Part shown: piece by piece, positions 6,101 through 62,983 of the stretch | How the letters are laid out: each line of letters begins with the position of its first letter | How positions within the stretch are numbered: the first letter of the stretch is position 1 | From: an uncultured Fibrobacter sp. | Lineage (GTDB): Bacteria > Fibrobacterota > Fibrobacteria > Fibrobacterales > Fibrobacteraceae | Assembly (NCBI GenBank): GCA_946183925.1 | Contig: CAMHDS010000005.1 | Location: 1-64,000, forward strand | Length of the DNA stretch: 64,000 bases | Reading direction: 5' to 3' | Position numbers and translations under genes: made by a program | Notes under the pieces: model-generated | Database searches by the model: none | The model's input: the letters and a program-made list of their open reading frames with translations, nothing else | Told to the model about the DNA's origin: nothing

Positions 6101-6240
6101 CAGGCTACACGAATTTGTCATCCCCGCGACCTTCCTTGTCATCCCCGCGATCCCTCTTGTCATCCCCGCGCAGGCGGGGATCTGCTATCATCTCGGTCGG
6201 GGATCTCCCGTCCATCCCATTGTCACCCCGGGCATATCCT
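6101..6240 (+). repeat. TCATCCCCGCG palindromic repeats with a 21-bp period
   Basis: Starts right after folC. TTGTCATCCCCGCG occurs three times (about 6116, 6137, 6158), spaced 21 bp, which is three heptads; the last copy completes a palindrome, CCCCGC-GCAG-GCGGGG. This TGTCATCCCCGC...GCGGGGATC unit is a common type of intergenic palindrome and recurs at 6540-6560, 46790-46810 and 50843-50890. The minus-strand ORF 6105-6335 (RGDDK repeats) is a by-product of it. Confidence 0.75.
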
Positions 6241-6450
6241 TTAACAAATCTTTCCCTCGATGTGTGTTCCCTCGAGAGCAGATTCACTTCGTTCGACTGC
6301 TCTCTCGGGAAGCACACATCTCGGTCAAAAAACAAGCGTTGGCTTTGGCATACAAGTGCTTTTTCGGGTAAGAATATTTACTATAGGTCTGAGCAGTTAC
6401 AACAGGCGGAAACTCTTGTGACTGTTAGTCCCTGCGAGTTTCCCTCGAGA
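6241..6450 (+). repeat. ~200-bp dispersed repeat R200, copy 1
   Basis: Shared with 50960-51175. Common blocks are ACAAATCTTTCCCTC, an imperfect hairpin (TTCCCTCGAGAGCAG against CTGCTCTCTCGGGAA), AGCACACATCTCGGTCAAAA and a 36-nt hairpin at 6408-6443 (GGAAACTC ... GAGTTTCC) that is identical in all three sites where it occurs. Reading frames differ between copies (4-nt length change), so it is unlikely to be coding. It ends 250 bp before a FISUMP gene. Could be a structured RNA or a non-autonomous mobile element. Confidence 0.75.
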
Positions 6451-6699
6451 TGTCATCCCTTGCGCTTCTCCATTGTCATCCCCACTCCTACGTCATGACG
6501 GCCCTCGAGCCGCCACCTGGCATCATCGCCTCCATCTTTGTCATCCTCGCGTAGGCGAGGATCCGCTTGCATCCTCCATTGTCACCCCGGGGCCACACGA
6601 AACACCCCTCTTTCCCCGCATTTTACACTTTCTTCATTTGACATTCCCGAAAATTTTATATAGATTGCATACAAACAACCTTCTCAAGGGGAACTGGCT
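6451..6699 (+). repeat. Further TCATCCCC/CACCCCGG palindromes and FISUMP leader
   Basis: Holds several partial copies of the TGTCATCCCC unit, one palindromic (CCTCGC-GTA-GGCGAGG near 6544-6560), then an A/T-rich stretch with TATATAGATTG (6657-6667) as a possible promoter element and AAGGGGAAC as ribosome binding site before the ATG at 6700. No gene recognised. Confidence 0.55.
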
Positions 6700-8315: not shown

Positions 8316-8539
8316 GTCTCATTTTGCGTGTTGCCTCCGTTTTTGGTGTGCTTATCTGTATATAAGACGGAGATGTAGGCCGAAAAAAGCCTTGTAAAGG
8401 AAATTTTTACGATGGAGTGAAAGGGAGATACCCCGTCAAGCGGGGCATGACAAGAGGGGAGGTCCGGCATGACAGCAGGGGGGGACTTCTTGGAGGAAAC
8501 TCGCAGGGACTAACAGTCACAAGAGTTTCCACCTGCGGG
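8316..8539. repeat. Repeat-rich spacer with third copy of the 36-nt hairpin
   Basis: No gene seen. Contains CCCCGTCAAGCGGGG (8431-8445) and GTCCGGCATGACA-type repeat pieces. At 8495-8530, on the minus strand, lies the 36-nt hairpin (GGAAACTC arm, GACTGTTAGTC inner stem, GAGTTTCC arm), identical to 6408-6443 and 51135-51170. The rest of R200 is not present here. Confidence 0.75.
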
Positions 8540-12772: not shown

Positions 12773-12780
12773 TCTTTTTC

Positions 12781-20639: not shown

Positions 20640-20737
20640 AATTGCCTTTCCGTTCAGGTGTCCGCGATTGCGGGGTTGATGTCGCGACCATCCGCGACGA
20701 TAAAAATATAGGATTTTATTATATTCAACAAAGATTT

Positions 20738-27384: not shown

Positions 27385-28215
27385 ATGTCTGTACAAGTAA
27401 TGGTAAATGGAATTCCGGGCAACATGGGCCGTATCGTGGCCGAAACCTGCGTGGCCCGCGGCCTGGAACTGGTCCCGTATTCCCTGACGGGCGAAATCAT
27501 CGTGGAAAACGAGGCCGAGGTGGCCGGCAAGACCGTCCAGCTCCTTAAGCCCAGCAACCGCGAAGAGCGCATCGGCGAGGTGCTGGCCAAGTACCCGAAA
27601 ATGATTTGCATCGACTATACCCACCCCACGGCTGTAAACGACAACGCCGCCTTCTACGTGAAGCACAAGATTCCTTTTGTGATGGGCACTACCGGTGGCG
27701 ACCGCGAAGCCCTTGCAAAGCTTGTGGCCGACGCCAACCACCCCAGCGTCATTGCTCCCAACATGGCAAAGCAGATTGTGGCTTTCCAGATGATGATTGA
27801 ATTTTTGGCCAAGGAATTCCCCACGGCATTTAGCGGTTACAAACTTTCCGTGGTAGAAAGCCACCAGAAGACCAAGGCGGACACCAGCGGCACGGCCAAG
27901 GCCGTGGTAGGGGACTTCCAGAAGATGGGATTCGACTTCTCTGTAGATGACATCGAGAAGGTCCGTAACGAAAAGGAACAGGTGGAACGGATGCACGTGC
28001 CCGAGGAATACCTGGGCGGTCACGCCTTCCACACCTACAGCCTGGACAGCGCCGACGGCACCGTGCATTTCGAGTTCCAGCACAACGTTTGTGGCCGCAA
28101 GATTTACGCCGAAGGCACCGTAGATGCGGTGAACTTCCTCGCATGCCACCTCGCAAACGGAACCGCCAAACCCTTCAACATGATGGACGTTTTGCGCTCT
28201 GGAAAAATGAGATAA
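27385..28215 (+). CDS. dapB: 4-hydroxy-tetrahydrodipicolinate reductase, plant-type
   Basis: 276 residues. Reduces hydroxy-tetrahydrodipicolinate in lysine/diaminopimelate synthesis. The NAD-binding loop is VNGIPGNMGRIVAE instead of the common GxxGRMG; FVMGTTGGDREAL and VVESHQKTKADTSGTAK hold the catalytic His and Lys. The sequence fits the plant-type DapB branch, which also occurs in some bacteria. Preceded by ACAGGAGTAACA as ribosome site. Supplies meso-DAP to the peptidoglycan made by the PBP at 9421. Confidence 0.9.
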   Translation: MSVQVMVNGIPGNMGRIVAETCVARGLELVPYSLTGEIIVENEAEVAGKTVQLLKPSNREERIGEVLAKYPKMICIDYTHPTAVNDNAAFYVKHKIPFVMGTTGGDREALAKLVADANHPSVIAPNMAKQIVAFQMMIEFLAKEFPTAFSGYKLSVVESHQKTKADTSGTAKAVVGDFQKMGFDFSVDDIEKVRNEKEQVERMHVPEEYLGGHAFHTYSLDSADGTVHFEFQHNVCGRKIYAEGTVDAVNFLACHLANGTAKPFNMMDVLRSGKMR

Positions 28216-28223
28216 GAAGTAAA

Positions 28224-28258
28224 CAGTGATTAGTGGTTAGTAAATAGGAATAATTAGG
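28224..28258 (+). repeat. Heptad tract, 3' side of dapB
   Basis: CAGTGAT, TAGTGGT, TAGTAAA, TAGGAAT, AATTAGG: G-rich orientation after a plus-strand gene, 8 bp past the stop. Confidence 0.8.
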
Positions 28259-28281
28259 CGGCTACGCCGCGATCATTAAAA

Positions 28282-28315
28282 CCTAACCACTGACCACTAA
28301 CCACCAACCACTCTT
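28282..28315 (+). repeat. Heptad tract, 5' side of the ABC permease gene
   Basis: CCACTGA, CCACTAA, CCACCAA, CCACTCT, T, then ATG. C-rich orientation before a plus-strand gene and complementary in style to 28224-28258. No Shine-Dalgarno is present. Confidence 0.82.
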
Positions 28316-29332
28316 ATGCGGTCCTACATCCTCCGACGCCTGCTTTTGATGATCCCGACCCTCATCGGGATTTCGCTGGTGTGTTTTATACTCATCCAGC
28401 TGTTGCCGGGCGGCCCTGTGGAGGAGATGATTTCCAGGGCCCAGCAGGCCGCCGCCATGAAAGGCGGGGTAGATGCGTCCAAGGCCCTGTCGCCAGACCA
28501 GATAGCCCAAATCCAGGCCTACTTCGGGTTTGACCAACCGGCCTGGAAGCGCTACCTGACCTGGCTCTGGAACGTGCTGCACCTGGACTTGGGCGCAAGC
28601 TACACCTATGGCCTCCCGGTATGGGACGTCATCGTGAGCCGGTTCCCCATATCCCTGTTTTTCGGAATCACTTCGTTCTTCTTGAGTTACCTGATTTGCA
28701 TTCCCCTTGGCCTCTGGAAGGCGGTGCATCACGGGAGCAAGCTGGACTCCCTCAGTTCGGGCCTGATATTCTCGGGCTACGTGATGCCGGGTTATGCCCT
28801 GGGCATCCTCCTGATTATTTTCCTTGCGGGCGGGTCCTACCTGGACATCTTTCCGCTGGGGGGCCTTACCAGCGACGACTTTGAGGATTTCTCTTTTTTC
28901 GGGAAAATCGTGGACCTGGGGCATCACCTGATTCTGCCGATTTTCTGCTACATGATTAGCGAGTTCGCCTTCCTGACCTTCCTCATGAAGAATTCCGCCC
29001 TGGAGGAACTGGGCAAGGACTACATGCGCACGGCCCTTGCAAAAGGCATGAGTTTCAAGCAGGCTTTGGTGCGCCATGCACTCCGCAACGCGCTCATTCC
29101 CATCGCCACCCGCCTCTCCGAAATCTGCACCCTCATGTTTGCGGGGGCGCTCCTTATCGAGAAGGTCTTTGATATCGACGGCATGGGCCTGCTATACTAC
29201 AATTCCATGGTGAACCGGGACTACAACGTGGTCATGGGCATCATCTTCCTCAGCAGCCTCATGGCCATGGTGGGCCGCCTTTTCAGCGATATCCTATACA
29301 CGCTGGTGGACCCGCGAATCAAGTTCTCGTAG
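28316..29332 (+). CDS. Dipeptide/oligopeptide ABC transporter permease (DppB/YejB-like)
   Basis: 338 residues, six transmembrane helices. N-terminus MRSYILRRLLLMIPTLIGIS and the segment RYLTWLWNVLHLDLGASYTY are typical of DppB/OppB/YejB; the inner-membrane coupling motif (EAA loop) reads DYMRTALAKGMSFKQALVRH, and the end is VDPRIKFS. It would form half of a peptide importer channel. No partner permease, ATPase or binding protein is adjacent, so the rest of the transporter must be elsewhere. A heptad tract occupies its leader. Confidence 0.9.
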   Translation: MRSYILRRLLLMIPTLIGISLVCFILIQLLPGGPVEEMISRAQQAAAMKGGVDASKALSPDQIAQIQAYFGFDQPAWKRYLTWLWNVLHLDLGASYTYGLPVWDVIVSRFPISLFFGITSFFLSYLICIPLGLWKAVHHGSKLDSLSSGLIFSGYVMPGYALGILLIIFLAGGSYLDIFPLGGLTSDDFEDFSFFGKIVDLGHHLILPIFCYMISEFAFLTFLMKNSALEELGKDYMRTALAKGMSFKQALVRHALRNALIPIATRLSEICTLMFAGALLIEKVFDIDGMGLLYYNSMVNRDYNVVMGIIFLSSLMAMVGRLFSDILYTLVDPRIKFS

Positions 29333-32004: not shown

Positions 32005-32144
32005 CCTAACCACCAATCACGAAACATTTCTCATCCCACGCCCCGCACCCCACATTAAAACCTCTTGTTCCCATCAGCCCTAACCCCTAAATCCTAATCT
32101 CTACAACCTACTACCTAACCCCTAGATCCTAGCCCCTAGATCCT
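32005..32144 (+). repeat. Heptad tract, 20 units
   Basis: In one phase: CCTAACC ACCAATC, ACGAAAC ATTTCTC, ATCCCAC GCCCCGC, ACCCCAC and so on, becoming CCTAACC/CCTAGAT-type units (AGATCCT AGCCCCT AGATCCT in this phase). C-rich orientation towards the downstream plus-strand gene. Confidence 0.85.
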
Positions 32145-32196
32145 AAAAAGTTTTCAGTCCTCAGTATATATTTGGCGCCAAAGGCGCGACTATAAG

Positions 32197-32292
32197 AACT
32201 CACAACTCATAACTGACAACTCATTACTCATCCCACACCTCACATTCCACATTCTTAATTCCGAACTCCGAATTCCGAACTCCGAACTCACC
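32197..32292 (+). repeat. Heptad tract with three motif families in one phase
   Basis: AACTCAC AACTCAT, AACTGAC AACTCAT, TACTCAT, then CCCACAC CTCACAT, TCCACAT, TCTTAAT, then TCCGAAC TCCGAAT, TCCGAAC twice, TCACC and the ATG. The 7-bp phase does not break when the motif changes. Confidence 0.88.
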
Positions 32293-33054
32293 ATGTCCCT
32301 TTCCATCCAATACGATTCTACATTTGAAGGCTTCTTGAGTGCAGTCTTCGAGATTTACCGCCAGCATCTTGAAGTGGGCGAAATCCGTCCGGACCGTTCC
32401 GCGGCTCCGGCAGATATGTTCCTGCAGCCTTTCCATATCGAGACCAGCGAGGAGTCGGCGGCCCGCCTCCATCGCGCCATCGTAAACTTTGCAAGCGAAG
32501 AGGTCTATAACTTGCTCCATGCGGCGTTCCTGTCGGAGGAGGTGGGCGTAGAGATGAAAATTTTCGCCTTTCTGAAAAAGCTTTTTTCTGGAACGGACCC
32601 TAGCTATGGACAAAATCCTGCTTCGGCGGAAATGCTCCCGCTTTACAAGCTGGGCCAGTCCGTGCGTAGGGAGGCGGGGGGAATGCTTGGCCTGGTCCGT
32701 TTTGCCGTAGGTCCCGATAACATGCTCTGTGCCGAAATTGAACCGAAATATGACGTACTGATGCTTATGGAAGCTCATTTTTCCAAGCGTTTCGCCAATG
32801 AAAAATGGCTGATTTACGATTCCAAGCGGGACTACGGCCTGTTTCACGACCGAGCAGGGTGTCAGGTGGTGACATTGCCGGGCTACAAGTCCGGCGCCAT
32901 GGACCTGAAAGATTCTTTTACCGACCTGTGGAGGGAATTCTACAAGTCCATCGCCATCAAGGAACGGGAGAACCCCAAGCTTTTGAGGCGTTGCCTGCCT
33001 GTCCGTTACTGGAACCACCTGCCGGAGCGCTCCATGGCAACGGCGGTTACGTAG
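32293..33054 (+). CDS. UDG-superfamily-like partner protein (TIGR03915/DUF4130)
   Basis: 253 residues (MSLSIQYDSTFEGFLSAVFE). It matches the family always paired with the radical SAM protein upstream: YDSTFEGFLSAVFEIY at the start, a middle KLGQSVRREAGGMLGLVRF, AHFSKRFANEKWLIYDSKRD, and the C-terminal DUF4130-like LWREFYKSIAIKERENP. In other genomes this is called a probable DNA metabolism or uracil-DNA glycosylase-like protein; biochemistry is not established. No ribosome binding site; a heptad tract abuts the ATG. Confidence 0.85.
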   Translation: MSLSIQYDSTFEGFLSAVFEIYRQHLEVGEIRPDRSAAPADMFLQPFHIETSEESAARLHRAIVNFASEEVYNLLHAAFLSEEVGVEMKIFAFLKKLFSGTDPSYGQNPASAEMLPLYKLGQSVRREAGGMLGLVRFAVGPDNMLCAEIEPKYDVLMLMEAHFSKRFANEKWLIYDSKRDYGLFHDRAGCQVVTLPGYKSGAMDLKDSFTDLWREFYKSIAIKERENPKLLRRCLPVRYWNHLPERSMATAVT

Positions 33055-38233: not shown

Positions 38234-39346
38234 ATGGCTACAAAGAAAAAAGCTTCACCTGTGAAGAAAGCCCCTGTAAAGGCTGCTGCCAAGAAGGCTG
38301 CTCCTGCTAAGGCTCCCGTAAAGGCTGCGGCCAAGAAGGTCGCTGCGAAGGCGCCTGCTAAAAAGGCCGCCCCTGCGAAGGCGCCTGCAAAGAAGGCTGC
38401 TCCAGCGAAGAAGGCGGCCCCCGCCAAGAAGGCTGCTCCTGCGAAAAAAGCGGTTCCTGCGAAGAAAGCCGCACCTACCAAGAAGGCAGTGCCTGCAAAA
38501 GCACCTGCCAAAAAGGTTGCCCCTGCAAAGAAGGCCACACCGGCTAAGAAGGTTGCTCCAGCAAAGAAACCGGCGGTGAAAGCTCCCGCTAAGGCTCCTG
38601 CCAAGAAGCCTGTTCCTGCAAAGGCTCCTTCCATCAAGAATTCCGCCCCCGCCAAGGAAACTCCGAAGGCCACCAAGAAGGACAAGGTCGAAAAGGCCGT
38701 CGAGGTCAAGAAGGTCAAAGGTGGCAAGAAGCCTGCGCCAGCTCCTGTCAAAACGGAAACCGTAGCCGAAGAGGTGGTGGAAACGGCTGCCGAAACCAAG
38801 GGCACAAAGCAGGGCAAGGGCGGCAAACCCAAGATTGAACTGCCTTTTGCAGTGCTCCTGGAAGGTGGCAAACGTCTTTCCAAGACCATCATGTTCTACG
38901 AAATCGACGAGCACGAAGATGGTGCCAACAAGAAGAAAGTGTCCTCTGAACTCAAGAATCTGGAAAAGAAGCCCACCATGGCGATTCGCCACAAGGCTTC
39001 CCTTGCCGAAGAGACCCAGGAAGAGCTGACGGAACGTATCCTGAAGGAACTGGAAGAACAGAACCTGGCGTTCACCCGCGAGGCGGCCACTCAGATTTGC
39101 ACCCGCTGCAACAAGAACCTGGTCTCTCCGGAATTCTGGGTGGACAAGCACCTGGGTTACTGCGAAGAATGTGCCGCTATCCTCAAGCTGGGCCAGTCCA
39201 AAGAAGCTCGTAAGGTGGATTACCAGATGGGGCTTCTCGGCCAGGATTCCCTGGACGAAGAGGATGAGGATAATGAATTTATGGACGGCCCTGATGCCGC
39301 TGACCTGAAGGAAGCGGAAGAGGAACTGGCCGAACTGGACGATTAA
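38234..39346 (+). CDS. Histone-H1-like Lys/Ala/Pro-rich protein with DksA-type zinc finger
   Basis: 370 residues. Residues 1-~135 are repeats of KKAAPAK/KAPAKKA, like AlgP or eukaryotic H1 tails and expected to bind DNA. A short folded region (KIELPFAVLLEGGKRLSKTI) and a helical segment (EETQEELTERILKELEEQ) lead to CTRCNKNL...GYCEEC, a C-x2-C-x17-C-x2-C finger with the spacing of TraR/DksA proteins. The last 35 residues are acidic (DEEDEDNEFMDG). The fusion suggests a nucleoid protein that could also touch RNA polymerase, but that is inference. Probably co-transcribed with the cyclophilin. Confidence 0.8.
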   Translation: MATKKKASPVKKAPVKAAAKKAAPAKAPVKAAAKKVAAKAPAKKAAPAKAPAKKAAPAKKAAPAKKAAPAKKAVPAKKAAPTKKAVPAKAPAKKVAPAKKATPAKKVAPAKKPAVKAPAKAPAKKPVPAKAPSIKNSAPAKETPKATKKDKVEKAVEVKKVKGGKKPAPAPVKTETVAEEVVETAAETKGTKQGKGGKPKIELPFAVLLEGGKRLSKTIMFYEIDEHEDGANKKKVSSELKNLEKKPTMAIRHKASLAEETQEELTERILKELEEQNLAFTREAATQICTRCNKNLVSPEFWVDKHLGYCEECAAILKLGQSKEARKVDYQMGLLGQDSLDEEDEDNEFMDGPDAADLKEAEEELAELDD

Positions 39347-43442: not shown

Positions 43443-43553
43443 AGGGGAAGGACTTCCCCTCGCTTCCTTCGACCCTCTCAGGTCCCCGAGCTTGACGAGG
43501 GGCCGAAGGGCGCTACCCCTTCGCCTAGGGGGACACCCCCTAAGACCCCCGCG
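43443..43553 (+). repeat. Two-hairpin dispersed element, copy with internal insertion
   Basis: Hairpin A AGGGGAAGGACTTCCCCT (43443-43460), ACCCCTTCG, hairpin B TAGGGGG-ACA-CCCCCTA (43526-43542). Between them is an inserted imperfect palindrome (CCTTCGACCCTC ... GAGGGGCCGAAGG) containing a CCGAGCTTGACGAGG piece. Confidence 0.78.
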
Positions 43554-43570
43554 TTCTAATCAGTATTTTC

Positions 43571-43578
43571 TAGATTTG
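43571..43578 (+). promoter_or_regulatory. TAnnTTTG -7 element of lptE
   Basis: TAGATTTG, 4 nt before the ATG at 43583; leaderless arrangement. Confidence 0.55.
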
Positions 43579-43582
43579 AGCC

Positions 43583-44098
43583 ATGCTTTTTGCAAGATGT
43601 TTATTTCGGTCTGTCCCCATGTTTCTGGCCGTCCTATTGGCAAGCCTCCTTTCGGGCTGTTACAGCTTTACGGCGTCCACGCTGCCAAGCCACATCAAGA
43701 CGGTCCAGATTCACGAGGTTGAAGACAAGACTTTGGACCCGGTGCTGGCCAACAACATCCGCGCAGGCGTGCTGGACATGTTCAAGAGCAACGCGGGCGG
43801 TGTCCGTATTGTAAACGAGAATGCCAACGCCGATTTCGAGATGACTCTTCTCAGTTACACCAACAAGCCCGAAAACTACAACAGCTCTAGTGACGTAGAG
43901 ACTTACCGCGTTACCATTAGGGTGAGCGTCAAGTTCTACGACAACGTGAAGGACAAGATTATTTACGAGAACAAGTCCCTTTCGGCGGACGGAACCTACG
44001 ATGTGGCCAAGAACGAATCCGAAGATCGTCATGGCCAGGCTCGCGCCATCGAGAAACTGCAAGACCTGATTGTAGCCAATGCTCTTGCAAAGTGGTAA
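43583..44098 (+). CDS. lptE: LptE-like LPS-assembly lipoprotein
   Basis: 171 residues. Signal peptide and lipobox LLSGCYSF (Cys-26), then the compact LptE-like fold: LPSHIKTVQIHEVEDKTLDP, a middle NADFEMTLLSYTNKPENYNS, and the helical end ARAIEKLQDLIVANALAKW. LptE plugs the LptD barrel and delivers lipopolysaccharide to the outer leaflet. The N-terminal GCYSFTASTLPSHIKT matches the DUF/LptE form seen in the FCB group. Directly followed by a 119-bp heptad tract. Confidence 0.83.
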   Translation: MLFARCLFRSVPMFLAVLLASLLSGCYSFTASTLPSHIKTVQIHEVEDKTLDPVLANNIRAGVLDMFKSNAGGVRIVNENANADFEMTLLSYTNKPENYNSSSDVETYRVTIRVSVKFYDNVKDKIIYENKSLSADGTYDVAKNESEDRHGQARAIEKLQDLIVANALAKW

Positions 44099-44099
44099 A

Positions 44100-44218
44100 C
44101 AGTGATGAGTCGTGAGTCATGAGTTGTGAGTGCACATTTCACATGCCACACCTCACATTCCACACCTCCCTAGATCCTAGCCCCTAAATCCTAAATCCTA
44201 AATCCTAACCCCTAACCC
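44100..44218 (+). repeat. Seventeen uninterrupted heptads from lptE to the next ATG
   Basis: CAGTGAT, GAGTCGT GAGTCAT, GAGTTGT GAGTGCA, CATTTCA CATGCCA, CACCTCA CATTCCA, CACCTCC, CTAGATC CTAGCCC, CTAAATC three times, CTAACCC twice, then ATG. Exactly 119 bp = 17 x 7. The first five are G-rich (3' type), the rest C-rich (5' type), so the tract can fold on itself. Confidence 0.9.
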
Positions 44219-45001
44219 ATGCGCAAATTCAGAGTTGTACTTGTTGAACCGGAACACCCTCACAATGTGGGCTTTGTGGCCCGTGCCATGCATTGCTATG
44301 CCTTGGATGAACTGTATATCGTCTACCCCAGGCGCGAAAAGGTAATTGAAAACTCTTACCACACGGCCCCCAACAGCCACGAGGTTTTGGATAAGGCGAC
44401 CATTGTCCACAAGTTCGAAGATGCCATTGGGGACTGCGCCTGCGCGGTGGCCTTCAGCCGCCGCATCTACGGTTCGGCTATCAAGCACACCATGATGCCC
44501 GGGCTTCCGGCACTGCTGCCCGAAGATGGAACCATCGCTCTCGTGTTCGGGCGGGAATCCTGTGGGCTGGAGACCGAAGAGGTGAATGCCTGTACCTACC
44601 AGTGCGAGATTCCCGTGCCGGGACTCATGAGCCTGAACTTGGCCCAGGCGGTGACGGTAGGCCTGTACGAACTTTGCCGTAGCGGAGCGTTGGCCAACGG
44701 CGAGGGTCGTGCCAAACGGACCACTCGGGGTGTGGCGGAAACGGGTCCTGCCACCATCGAGCAGATCGATAGCTTCAAGAAGTTTATGGACCGCTACCTC
44801 ACAGGGCAGTACCACGACCAGGCCTGGCGGGACAATTTCCTTAATACGCTTTTGCAGCGCCTGCACCCGACCCGGAACGAACTTTCGGCCTTGTTCGGGC
44901 TTATCCGCAATATTGCTGGCAAGCCAGCCCGCTTGGAGCATGCGGCAGAAAAGGCCGCCAAGGCAGCTAAAGCTGCCGATACTACAGAAAACGCGGATTA
45001 A
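44219..45001 (+). CDS. TrmJ-like SPOUT RNA methyltransferase
   Basis: 260 residues. SpoU-type SPOUT fold: motif 1 LVEPEHPHNVGFVARAMHCY, motif 2 IALVFGRESCGLETEEVN, motif 3 GLMSLNLAQAVTVGLYEL. Closest in style to TrmJ (2'-O-methylation of tRNA position 32), with a C-terminal helical tail ending in an Ala/Lys-rich AEKAAKAAKAAD. The exact RNA target is not certain. No Shine-Dalgarno; the heptad tract ends at its ATG. Overlaps the convergent phosphatase gene by 4 nt. Confidence 0.87.
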   Translation: MRKFRVVLVEPEHPHNVGFVARAMHCYALDELYIVYPRREKVIENSYHTAPNSHEVLDKATIVHKFEDAIGDCACAVAFSRRIYGSAIKHTMMPGLPALLPEDGTIALVFGRESCGLETEEVNACTYQCEIPVPGLMSLNLAQAVTVGLYELCRSGALANGEGRAKRTTRGVAETGPATIEQIDSFKKFMDRYLTGQYHDQAWRDNFLNTLLQRLHPTRNELSALFGLIRNIAGKPARLEHAAEKAAKAAKAADTTENAD

Positions 45002-46299: not shown

Positions 46300-46319
46300 A
46301 TTTTCTAGTCCCGATTGAA

Positions 46320-46345
46320 TGCCAGATGGCGGGTCGCGGCCCGCC
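46320..46345. repeat. Palindrome GGCGGGTCGCGGCCCGCC
   Basis: TGGCGGGTCGCGGCCCGCCATGAC, a GGCGGGxxxxCCCGCC hairpin of the REP-like type, 5' of the phosphatase gene. Confidence 0.5.
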
Positions 46346-46351
46346 ATGACG

Positions 46352-46422
46352 TAATCACAAACTACACTTCACATTACTCATAACTGACCACCAACCACTA
46401 ACCACTAACCACTGACCACTTT
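46352..46422 (-). repeat. Heptad tract overlapping the hisI stop
   Basis: TAATCAC, AAACTAC, ACTTCAC, ATTACTC, ATAACTG, ACCACCA, ACCACTA twice, ACCACTG, ACCACTT on the + strand. The hisI TAG (46405-46407) and its last four residues VVSG are encoded by the tract. Confidence 0.85.
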
Positions 46423-46755: not shown

Positions 46756-46784
46756 AACTAGTTAGCAGTTCTTGTTTATTAAAG

Positions 46785-46812
46785 GAGATTCCCGCCTTCG
46801 CGGGAATGACAT
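46785..46812. repeat. Palindrome CCCGCCTTCGCGGG
   Basis: GATTCCCGCCTTCGCGGGAATGAC, a member of the GTCATTCCCGC dispersed palindromes, in the hisI-proA spacer. Confidence 0.6.
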
Positions 46813-46823
46813 TTTATTCCCAA

Positions 46824-46855
46824 AATCCGAACTCTGAAATCCGAATTCCGAATTA
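46824..46855 (-). repeat. Heptad tract (TCCGAAT type) at the proA stop
   Basis: AATCCGA, ACTCTGA, AATCCGA, ATTCCGA on +. On the gene strand it reads TAATTCGGAATTCGG, the TAA being the proA stop. Confidence 0.82.
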
Positions 46856-50959: not shown

Positions 50960-51175
50960 TTTTTTACAAATCTTTCCCTCAATGTGTACGTTCCCTCGCT
51001 CACAGGAACTCACTTTGTTCGACTGTTCGCTCAGGAAGCACACATCTCGGTCAAAAAACACAAACAACGGCTCTGGTATGCAAGTGTTTTGTGGTCAGAA
51101 CCTGTTTTTGCAGGCAAGAACAGGTCTCGTAGGAGGAAACTCTTGTGACTGTTAGTCCCTGCGAGTTTCCGCCGA
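50960..51175 (+). repeat. ~200-bp dispersed repeat R200, copy 2
   Basis: Matches 6241-6450 in blocks: ACAAATCTTTCCCTC, hairpin arms TTCCCTCGCTCACAG against CTGTTCGCTCAGGAA, AGCACACATCTCGGTCAAAA, and the identical 36-nt hairpin at 51135-51170. Two arm pairs changed together relative to copy 1 (A-U to C-G, G-C to A-U). It points at the 3' end of the FISUMP gene, 200 bp away. Confidence 0.75.
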
Positions 51176-51377
51176 GAGTCTTTTGAAGATGTTATACATA
51201 ACTGTTTAGACAATTAGACATGGTTTTTGTCTAAACATTTTTGCCATTGAAACTGCGGAAATAGACAGTGAAGTAAAACATCATCTAAAAGTACACTAAC
51301 ATTGAATACGCAACAAAATAATTTATGTTACATTTCGTCGTAACATTTTCTTTTGCCTTGTTATGATATTGCAGTTC

Positions 51378-57939: not shown

Positions 57940-57981
57940 GATTTTTCCTTTGTGATTTACAGGATAAAATATAGAAAATAA

Positions 57982-58093
57982 GGCTCGAGGCACGGGGCGC
58001 GAGGCACGAGGCTCGGGGGCGAGATTAATGTGGAGTGTGGAATGTGAAGTGTGAGATTAATCATTTTTCATTACACATCACACATTTCACACT
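57982..58093 (-). repeat. Sixteen heptads between purH and the NifU-like gene
   Basis: GGCTCGA GGCACGG, GGCGCGA GGCACGA, GGCTCGG, GGGCGAG, ATTAATG, TGGAGTG TGGAATG, TGAAGTG, TGAGATT, AATCATT, TTTCATT, ACACATC ACACATT, TCACACT; the next base begins the NifU stop (CTA). Three motif families keep one phase, and the G-rich part faces purH, the C-rich part the NifU stop. Confidence 0.88.
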
Positions 58094-58915
58094 CTAAAAC
58101 AAACTGGCCGGCGGTTTGTTGTCGTCGAGGCCCGGCAGATTCGGGTTGGGCGGGATATTGTCCAGCGGGTCTTCGGGTTCTACAATCAGGTTGTAATAGA
58201 CGTTGTTCTTCAGTTCGTCTTCGATGTAGAAAAGGGTGCCGCCCATGGCAGAGCCGCAACCGGCGCAAGCCCCTTGGTAGCGGATTTTCAGGCGGTTGTC
58301 GTCGGTCAGGTCCAGCACTTCCAGGTCGCCGCCGTCGCCTTGCAGCATCCCGCGCACGGACTGGTGGAGCCAGGCTTCGATCTTTTCGATTTTCTGCGGC
58401 TTGGTGAGGGCGTTCCATTCGGCGTCGGCTTCGGCGCGGCCCTCGGCGGTCTGGGTACGGTACTTGATGCGCTCCATCTTCTCGCGGACCAAAATAGCGG
58501 TGGCCTTCTTTTCGGGGTAGGCCTCCAGCACCCGCTGGATAAGCGTGTTCATTTGTTTGAGTTCCGGAGCGGAGGCGTCAAAAGCCGGCACGTCGGGGGT
58601 GTCCCGCAGTTCCTGTTCCAGACTTTCGGCGGTAATGGCGCAGGCTTCTTCCACCGTGACCATCTGGATTTTCTTGCAGAAGGTGTCGGCGAGAGCGGTA
58701 AAAATGGGCCCGCCGTAGGTGAAGAACCTAGTCTCCAGAATCTTGTCGCATTCCGGGTCTATCATCAGGTAGACCTTCAGGCTCGCTTCCTTCACGTCTA
58801 CAAGGGCAAGTCCCTTCTCGTCGGCTTCAATCTGGAAAATCGCGCCCCTGTACTTGGGGGCCTTTGCAATCTCCTGCACCTTCTTGGAAAAATTCGCACA
58901 CAGTTCTTCGCTCAT
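58094..58915 (-). CDS. NifU-like protein: degenerate IscU-like domain plus Nfu domain
   Basis: 273 residues. The N-terminal half aligns with IscU/NifU_N, but the scaffold box (usually KTYGCGSAIA) reads FFTYGGPIFTALADT, without the cluster Cys. The C-terminal half is an intact Nfu domain: VRGMLQGDGGDLEVLDL and YQGACAGCGSAMGGTLFYIE with its CxxC. It probably carries a 4Fe-4S cluster to target proteins rather than building one. The tail (PLDNIPPNPNLPGLDDNKPP) is disordered. TATATTTG is 8 nt before the ATG. Confidence 0.85.
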   Translation of the reverse strand: MSEELCANFSKKVQEIAKAPKYRGAIFQIEADEKGLALVDVKEASLKVYLMIDPECDKILETRFFTYGGPIFTALADTFCKKIQMVTVEEACAITAESLEQELRDTPDVPAFDASAPELKQMNTLIQRVLEAYPEKKATAILVREKMERIKYRTQTAEGRAEADAEWNALTKPQKIEKIEAWLHQSVRGMLQGDGGDLEVLDLTDDNRLKIRYQGACAGCGSAMGGTLFYIEDELKNNVYYNLIVEPEDPLDNIPPNPNLPGLDDNKPPASLF

Positions 58916-62946: not shown

Positions 62947-62983
62947 GGTGCGCCAAATATAGAATTTTTACTACATTACACCC
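62947..62983. promoter_or_regulatory. Compact divergent promoter, 37 bp
   Basis: Minus TATATTTG (62954-62961) and plus TACATTAC (62972-62979) lie back to back, each 4-7 nt from its start codon. Both genes should make leaderless mRNA. Confidence 0.6.

Follow-up and report, generated by a model that had tools for sequence, protein, structure and literature searches.

Short tandemly repeated repetitive (STRR) heptanucleotides form several intergenic families in cyanobacteria, and on that description they resemble the repeats considered here. In Xanthomonas and Nostoc, heterogeneous 7-mers (GGGAATC / GGGGA(C/T)T) build hundreds of arrays, about 90% of them intergenic and of a size varying between species (Rehm et al., 2015, PMC4692102, in which the STRR of Calothrix are also cited). 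Xanthomonas has some 70 convergent plus/minus array pairs, and its G-strand arrays lie close to the 5' neighboring ORF (mean 28 versus 160 nt) (Rehm et al., 2015). The TAACTGA direct repeats of Beggiatoaceae, Cyanobacteria and some Bacteroidetes are likewise intergenic. They consist of 2-6 copies of one heptamer, mostly located immediately upstream of start codons where Shine-Dalgarno sequences are rare, with inverted pairs nearly absent; 7-nt indels separate close strains, and relatives with shorter gaps lack the repeats (MacGregor, 2015, PMC4679880). The preference of bacterial repeats for a 7-bp unit and the intergenic position of such arrays have lacked an explanation since the excess was noticed. 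In the open-access literature, no earlier report of heptanucleotide or intergenic repeats in Fibrobacter was found.

The window, a 64,000-nucleotide stretch from an uncultured Fibrobacter sp. (contig CAMHDS010000005.1; the draft genome is hereafter G000), contains such an array between lptE and a trmJ-like gene (Table 1). Both gene identities agree with those of the preliminary description; the trmJ-like gene also matches TIGR00050 (E 1.8e-41), although under the cut-off of this model. After the lptE stop codon (TAA, 44096-44098) and a single A, 17 heptads run in register over 44100-44218, up to the ATG at 44219. The 17 x 7 filling first noticed from the sequence is thus confirmed, as are the families GAGTCAT, CATTCCA and CTAAATC, but how exact the fit is depends partly on where the ends are placed, the match being poor in the first unit (CAGTGAT) and where families meet (44128-44141 and 44163-44176). 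Identity is 0.68 at lag 7 and 0.66 at lag 14, every other lag up to 20 giving at most 0.32. Since 5000 Markov shuffles reached a lag-7 identity of 0.27±0.045 (maximum 0.46), the tract is not due to chance. The G000 draft is split into 167 contigs, and such fragmentation could suggest an assembly artefact or chance low-complexity sequence; this explanation is already refuted, both by the excess over shuffles and by a like tract with equal flanks in the independent assemblies UBA4375 and RUG831, and it retains practically no credibility.

Table 1. Genes, parts of the heptad tract and comparable gaps in the window.
Feature	Position	Strand	Match or sequence
Possible Bacteroidetes-type -7 box, seen in the sequence	directly before lptE ATG		TAGATTTG
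lptE (LptE family)	43583..44098	+	PF04390, E 5.5e-07, above cut-off
Left arm of tract	44100..44134	+	CAGTGAT GAGTCGT GAGTCAT GAGTTGT GAGTGCA; G-type strand is plus
Middle of tract	44135..44169	-	CATTTCA CATGCCA CACCTCA CATTCCA CACCTCC; TGTGGAATGTGAGGTG family on minus strand
Right arm of tract	44170..44218	-	CTAGATC CTAGCCC (CTAAATC)x3 (CTAACCC)x2; TTAGGGG-like read inward from trmJ edge
trmJ-like SpoU-family RNA methyltransferase	44219..45001	+	PF00588, E 2.3e-24
Cassette of the same kind	28202..28322		TTAGTGG arm, GC hairpin core GGCGGCTACGCCGCG, CACTAAC arm
Composite heptad gap	32071..32304		CTAACCC, ACTCACA, CACATTC and AATTCCG families, GGCGCCAAAGGCGCG core
Heptad gap with both arms	57958..58103		GAGGCAC/TGTGGAA left, CATTACA right

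The tract is one among hundreds in its genome and not a special leader. A lag scan of 464 kb of G000 (7 contigs) revealed 78 tracts at lag 7, dispersed over these contigs and intergenic in 69 cases. The 7-bp unit is in clear excess over neighboring periods: 36 tracts were found at lag 14, a single one at lag 5 and none at lags 8 and 13, and the repeats at lags 6 and 9 are nearly all inside genes. BLAST with the tract lists 50 places in G000, the tract itself included, and a gap at G000:C3 55574-55730 shows its order of families (GAGTTGT-type left arm, TGTGGAATGTGAGGTG middle, TTAGGGG right arm) in reverse orientation. TAACTGA units also occur in G000. The surveys further covered 0.2-0.4 Mb each of G060 (UBA4375), G022, G005 and G030. 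Per 100 kb, about 15 intergenic lag-7 tracts were counted in G000, 17 in G060, 13 in G022 and 14 in G002, and 3-5 in G005, G030 and G028; five Fibrobacterota genomes that lie outside the family yielded a single tract in 390 kb. In this sample, heptad tracts belong to the genus. They form a dense set spread over many related genomes, an extrapolated 400 or so in each.

Repeats of other kinds also occur in the window. A dispersed repeat of about 220 bp (6229-6459 and 50960-51180, with a half-copy at 8478-8538) recurs at numerous sites in each of the four relatives searched, with 75-95% identity. Tandem repeats at 38276-38568, mainly of 18-bp period with units such as GCACCTGCAAAGAAGGTT, probably encode a Lys/Ala/Pro-rich stretch.

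The heptad tracts follow an orientation rule. At the left side of a gap they are G-rich (TTAGGGG, TTAGTGG, CGGAATT, GAGTTGT, TGTGGAA, GAGGCAC), and at the right side they carry the complements. This arrangement holds for 47 of the 55 skewed tracts of G000 (23+24 fit, 3+5 do not; Spearman p 3e-8) and again for 32 of 39 in G060 (17+15 versus 5+2). It is independent of gene direction, the G-rich strand being read inward from either gene edge. When all arms are aligned on this strand, a single register emerges with the skeleton K-M-G-K-N-N-Y, at 3.49 bits versus 2.44±0.04 in column-permuted controls. On inspection, a role as all-frame stops or Rho-loading sites was rejected, because gene direction has no bearing on the orientation and stops are lacking in the CGGAATT family.

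Centers of cassettes are often GC hairpins (GGCGCCAAAGGCGCG, GGCGGCTACGCCGCG) or GTCATCC...GGATGAC palindromes. One alternative explanation is a structural RNA or DNA element whose arms would pair as a long hairpin, ending transcription, protecting mRNA or forming a cruciform. In many gaps, the arms on either side of a GC core are indeed complementary and of one family (e.g., L042 5327-5433, fold z -8.8), and own arms match better than swapped arms, if slightly (p 0.04); half-gap complementarity over all 47 gaps gave p 0.07. However, relative to shuffles, the folding of heptad gaps is not better than that of the remaining gaps (p 0.40), so that a hairpin was rejected as their defining property. 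The lptE-trmJ tract itself folds weakly (z -0.6 as DNA, -1.8 as RNA), 44 of 200 shuffles folding as well as DNA and 9 of 200 as RNA, and its two arms come from different families. We hence regard a structural role as quite unlikely. Rfam covariance models gave no match within 44099-44218 and one sub-threshold match elsewhere. The latter, to Clostridiales-2 RNA (RF02937; 25 bits versus a gathering score of 59), lies on the minus strand at 43462-43558, within GC-rich, repeat-like sequence that precedes lptE.

The assemblies related at the locus are Fibrobacter from rumen and gut (e.g., UBA4375, RUG831, RGIG5144). The spacer between lptE and trmJ measures 120 bp in G000 and 106 bp in its closest relative UBA4375, a difference of 14 bp corresponding to 15 heptads instead of 17. 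In UBA4375, the left arm has an equal number of units of different sequence and the right arm is shorter by two units. In RUG831, the spacer is remodelled (186 bp) and has a different center, which is REP-like. The nearest other genomes have spacers of 18-19 and 4 bp and a further clade spacers of 33-37 bp, all without heptads. The multiples of 7 anticipated among relatives are thus seen in the nearest one; the counter-evidence named beforehand, spacer lengths that do not differ by 7 and no repeats, occurs in the next relatives (186 bp with another center; 18, 18 and 4 bp without repeats) and not in the closest. As the three heptad-bearing loci (G000, UBA4375, RUG831) form one clade (support 92/100), a single gain suffices, and sequence comparison suggests that the tract was gained recently, inside this clade. 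Many other Fibrobacter have another gene in front of trmJ, at a distance of 0-3 bp, and some gaps before trmJ with a different preceding gene hold their own heptads of other families.

These comparisons bear on how trmJ is expressed. By inspection, neither a Shine-Dalgarno sequence nor a sigma-70-like promoter is visible on the plus strand of 44100-44218; the preliminary description had seen no room for a conventional form of either. From this it had been argued that the tract itself must be the leader or that the genes are co-transcribed through it. The first alternative is not supported: more than 45 orthologues conserve the trmJ start ATG, orthologues without any heptads use this same ATG, and genes without Shine-Dalgarno are ordinary in G000, a simple test finding a match for 36% of genes (9% in shuffles) and none for 64%. 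Since trmJ orthologues without heptads start at this ATG, the gene does not depend on the tract for its start, and read-through from the preceding gene is the default. Co-transcription of lptE and trmJ is most simply, and probably, the right alternative, because in relatives without the tract the two genes are 4-37 bp apart.

A regulatory leader, in which the heptads would bind an RNA-binding protein or their number would set trmJ translation, could be envisaged by analogy with the TAACTGA repeats of Beggiatoaceae, since such regulation has been proposed for heptamers immediately before start codons (MacGregor, 2015, PMC4679880). The tract indeed adjoins a start codon devoid of Shine-Dalgarno, and the repeat number differs among close strains. 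Yet conservation with the gene, as expected of a translational leader or repeat-binding site, is not observed: the tract is absent from most trmJ orthologues, and the heptad family beside a given gene varies freely. Moreover, tracts adjoin stop codons as well as starts, between genes of all orientations. A leader function is accordingly improbable. Separately, the Bacteroidetes -7 box TAnnTTTG is enriched about 4-6x upstream of divergent Fibrobacter genes (compare 43560-43582 in the window), and often lies 0-10 nt from the start codon; this position suggests very short leaders in Fibrobacter.

Heptad gaps turn over rapidly. A comparison of G000 with G060 shows that 2 of 15 heptad gaps, versus 35 of 39 others, have stayed within 2 bp of the same length (Fisher p 2e-7); two other close genome pairs agree with this contrast. 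Small changes are often single units, and length steps of 7 nt recur between close relatives: besides the 120/106 bp of lptE-trmJ, the gap at 12773 measures 124/117/110 bp in G060/G002/G022, and that at 62947 measures 220/206 bp. Indels are multiples of 7 in 16 of 51 cases in heptad context versus 32 of 281 elsewhere, although many in heptad context are not, which counts against a reading by 7-bp steps. Within arrays, unit similarity falls with distance (lag 7, 0.58; lag 42, 0.33), a pattern expected from local duplication. Large changes swap the entire cassette, and most gap changes resemble replacement of the whole gap. At site 28216, for instance, the TTAGTGG cassette is replaced whole by CGGAATT arms in G060 and G002. 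Arrays have thus been caught adding and dropping single units, and the orientation rule constrains any explanation.

How cassettes enter a gap is a distinct matter. They could be non-autonomous MITE-like elements with heptad terminal inverted repeats, mobilised by a transposase in trans, younger copies being nested in the centers of older ones. Clean filled/empty sites with TTTTA on both sides exist at 62947, where the inserted element has inverted GAGTTGT ends, and at 20640, and the equal family order at 44100-44218 and G000:C3 55574-55730 would also fit. But these clean sites are the only two, the ends of cassettes differ in family and length so that there is no fixed terminal repeat, and no transposase is linked. 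In G000 (81% complete), the REP-associated tyrosine transposase (PF01797) had no match, whereas control genomes matched, and no other mobilising enzyme was identified for the cassettes. No match supporting a phage or plasmid origin of the tract was found either. We therefore give the MITE-like explanation little weight. Both clean sites are divergent gaps (20640-20737 and 62947-62983) in which G060, and at 62947 also G022, carries the insertion between two promoter-like boxes.

Some heptad gaps are more alike than the genes around them. The gap at 46756..46852 is identical at 97/97 positions in four genomes, against 88-94% identity in their flanking genes; in G081, whose nearby genes share 80-88% identity with their G000 counterparts, it is 98% identical. 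Three pairs were examined closely, and in these the mismatches begin again within 10-30 bases of entering each gene. Similarly, the gap at 46300..46404 is 99% identical in G002 (aligned columns) with flanks at 89%, and G060 and G022 carry another cassette there. With flanks below 92%, the excess of gap over flank identity is 0.085 at 8 heptad loci versus 0.021 at 15 others (p 3e-4), a lead to gap-limited transfer or constraint and not more, because the test was made after seeing one case, on few loci sharing genomes, and synonymous sites in the coding flanks evolve fast. The near-identity of some gaps between species could reflect constraint, implying function. If it holds, gap-limited near-identity would suggest that intergenic DNA moves between species without its genes. 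A broader proposal, tentative and on the unlikely side, is that heptad cassettes in Fibrobacter gaps form a mobile pool and recombine between species independently of flanking genes, through a process in 7-bp register that recognises gene edges or palindromic arms; an inward rule shared with Xanthomonas and Beggiatoaceae would make this a general, undescribed intergenic element.

The explanation we favor, and hold to be fairly probable, is that the tract belongs to a genus-wide class of intergenic heptad cassettes, and that it arrived by exchange or insertion, changes by 7-bp slippage and was gained once at lptE-trmJ. Such a cassette would comprise one or two arrays of drifting 7-mers, G-rich inward, often around a small GC hairpin or REP-like core. 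Its entry into a gap would be through insertion or strain-to-strain exchange, after which it would lengthen, shorten and homogenise in 7-bp steps via slippage or unequal exchange. At this locus, one gain would have taken place in the ancestor of G000, UBA4375 and RUG831, between genes otherwise 4-37 bp apart. trmJ would most likely still be expressed by read-through from lptE, starting without Shine-Dalgarno from the G-poor, C-rich right arm. Heptad cassettes are treated here as mostly tolerated filler.

The closest known kinds are the intergenic heptamer arrays of Xanthomonas, Nostoc and Beggiatoaceae, of which the Fibrobacter version is a variant and not the same repeat, because its several families share only KMGKNNY and no single heptamer dominates. 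With Xanthomonas and Nostoc, it shares period, intergenic location and variation in array size; with Xanthomonas it also shares convergent pairs, and the siting of the G-strand arrays there can be read as the same inward rule. In contrast to their single heptamer family and the emphasis on G-quadruplexes, Fibrobacter has many families on one skeleton, and its arrays change family internally and often surround a GC or REP-like core. With the TAACTGA repeats of Beggiatoaceae, it shares period, intergenic siting directly before start codons, the rarity of Shine-Dalgarno sequences, 7-nt length steps and relatives with short repeat-free gaps but, unlike them, it has multi-family arms at both gene edges. 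The GTCATCC...GGATGAC palindromes at the center of some cassettes recall REP/BIME/REPIN elements, which are dispersed, high-copy intergenic palindromes associated with RAYT transposases; REPs are not defined by 7-bp arrays, and no linked Y1_Tnp gene was found in G000. Several families on one skeleton, palindromic cores and the replacement of entire cassettes distinguish the Fibrobacter version.
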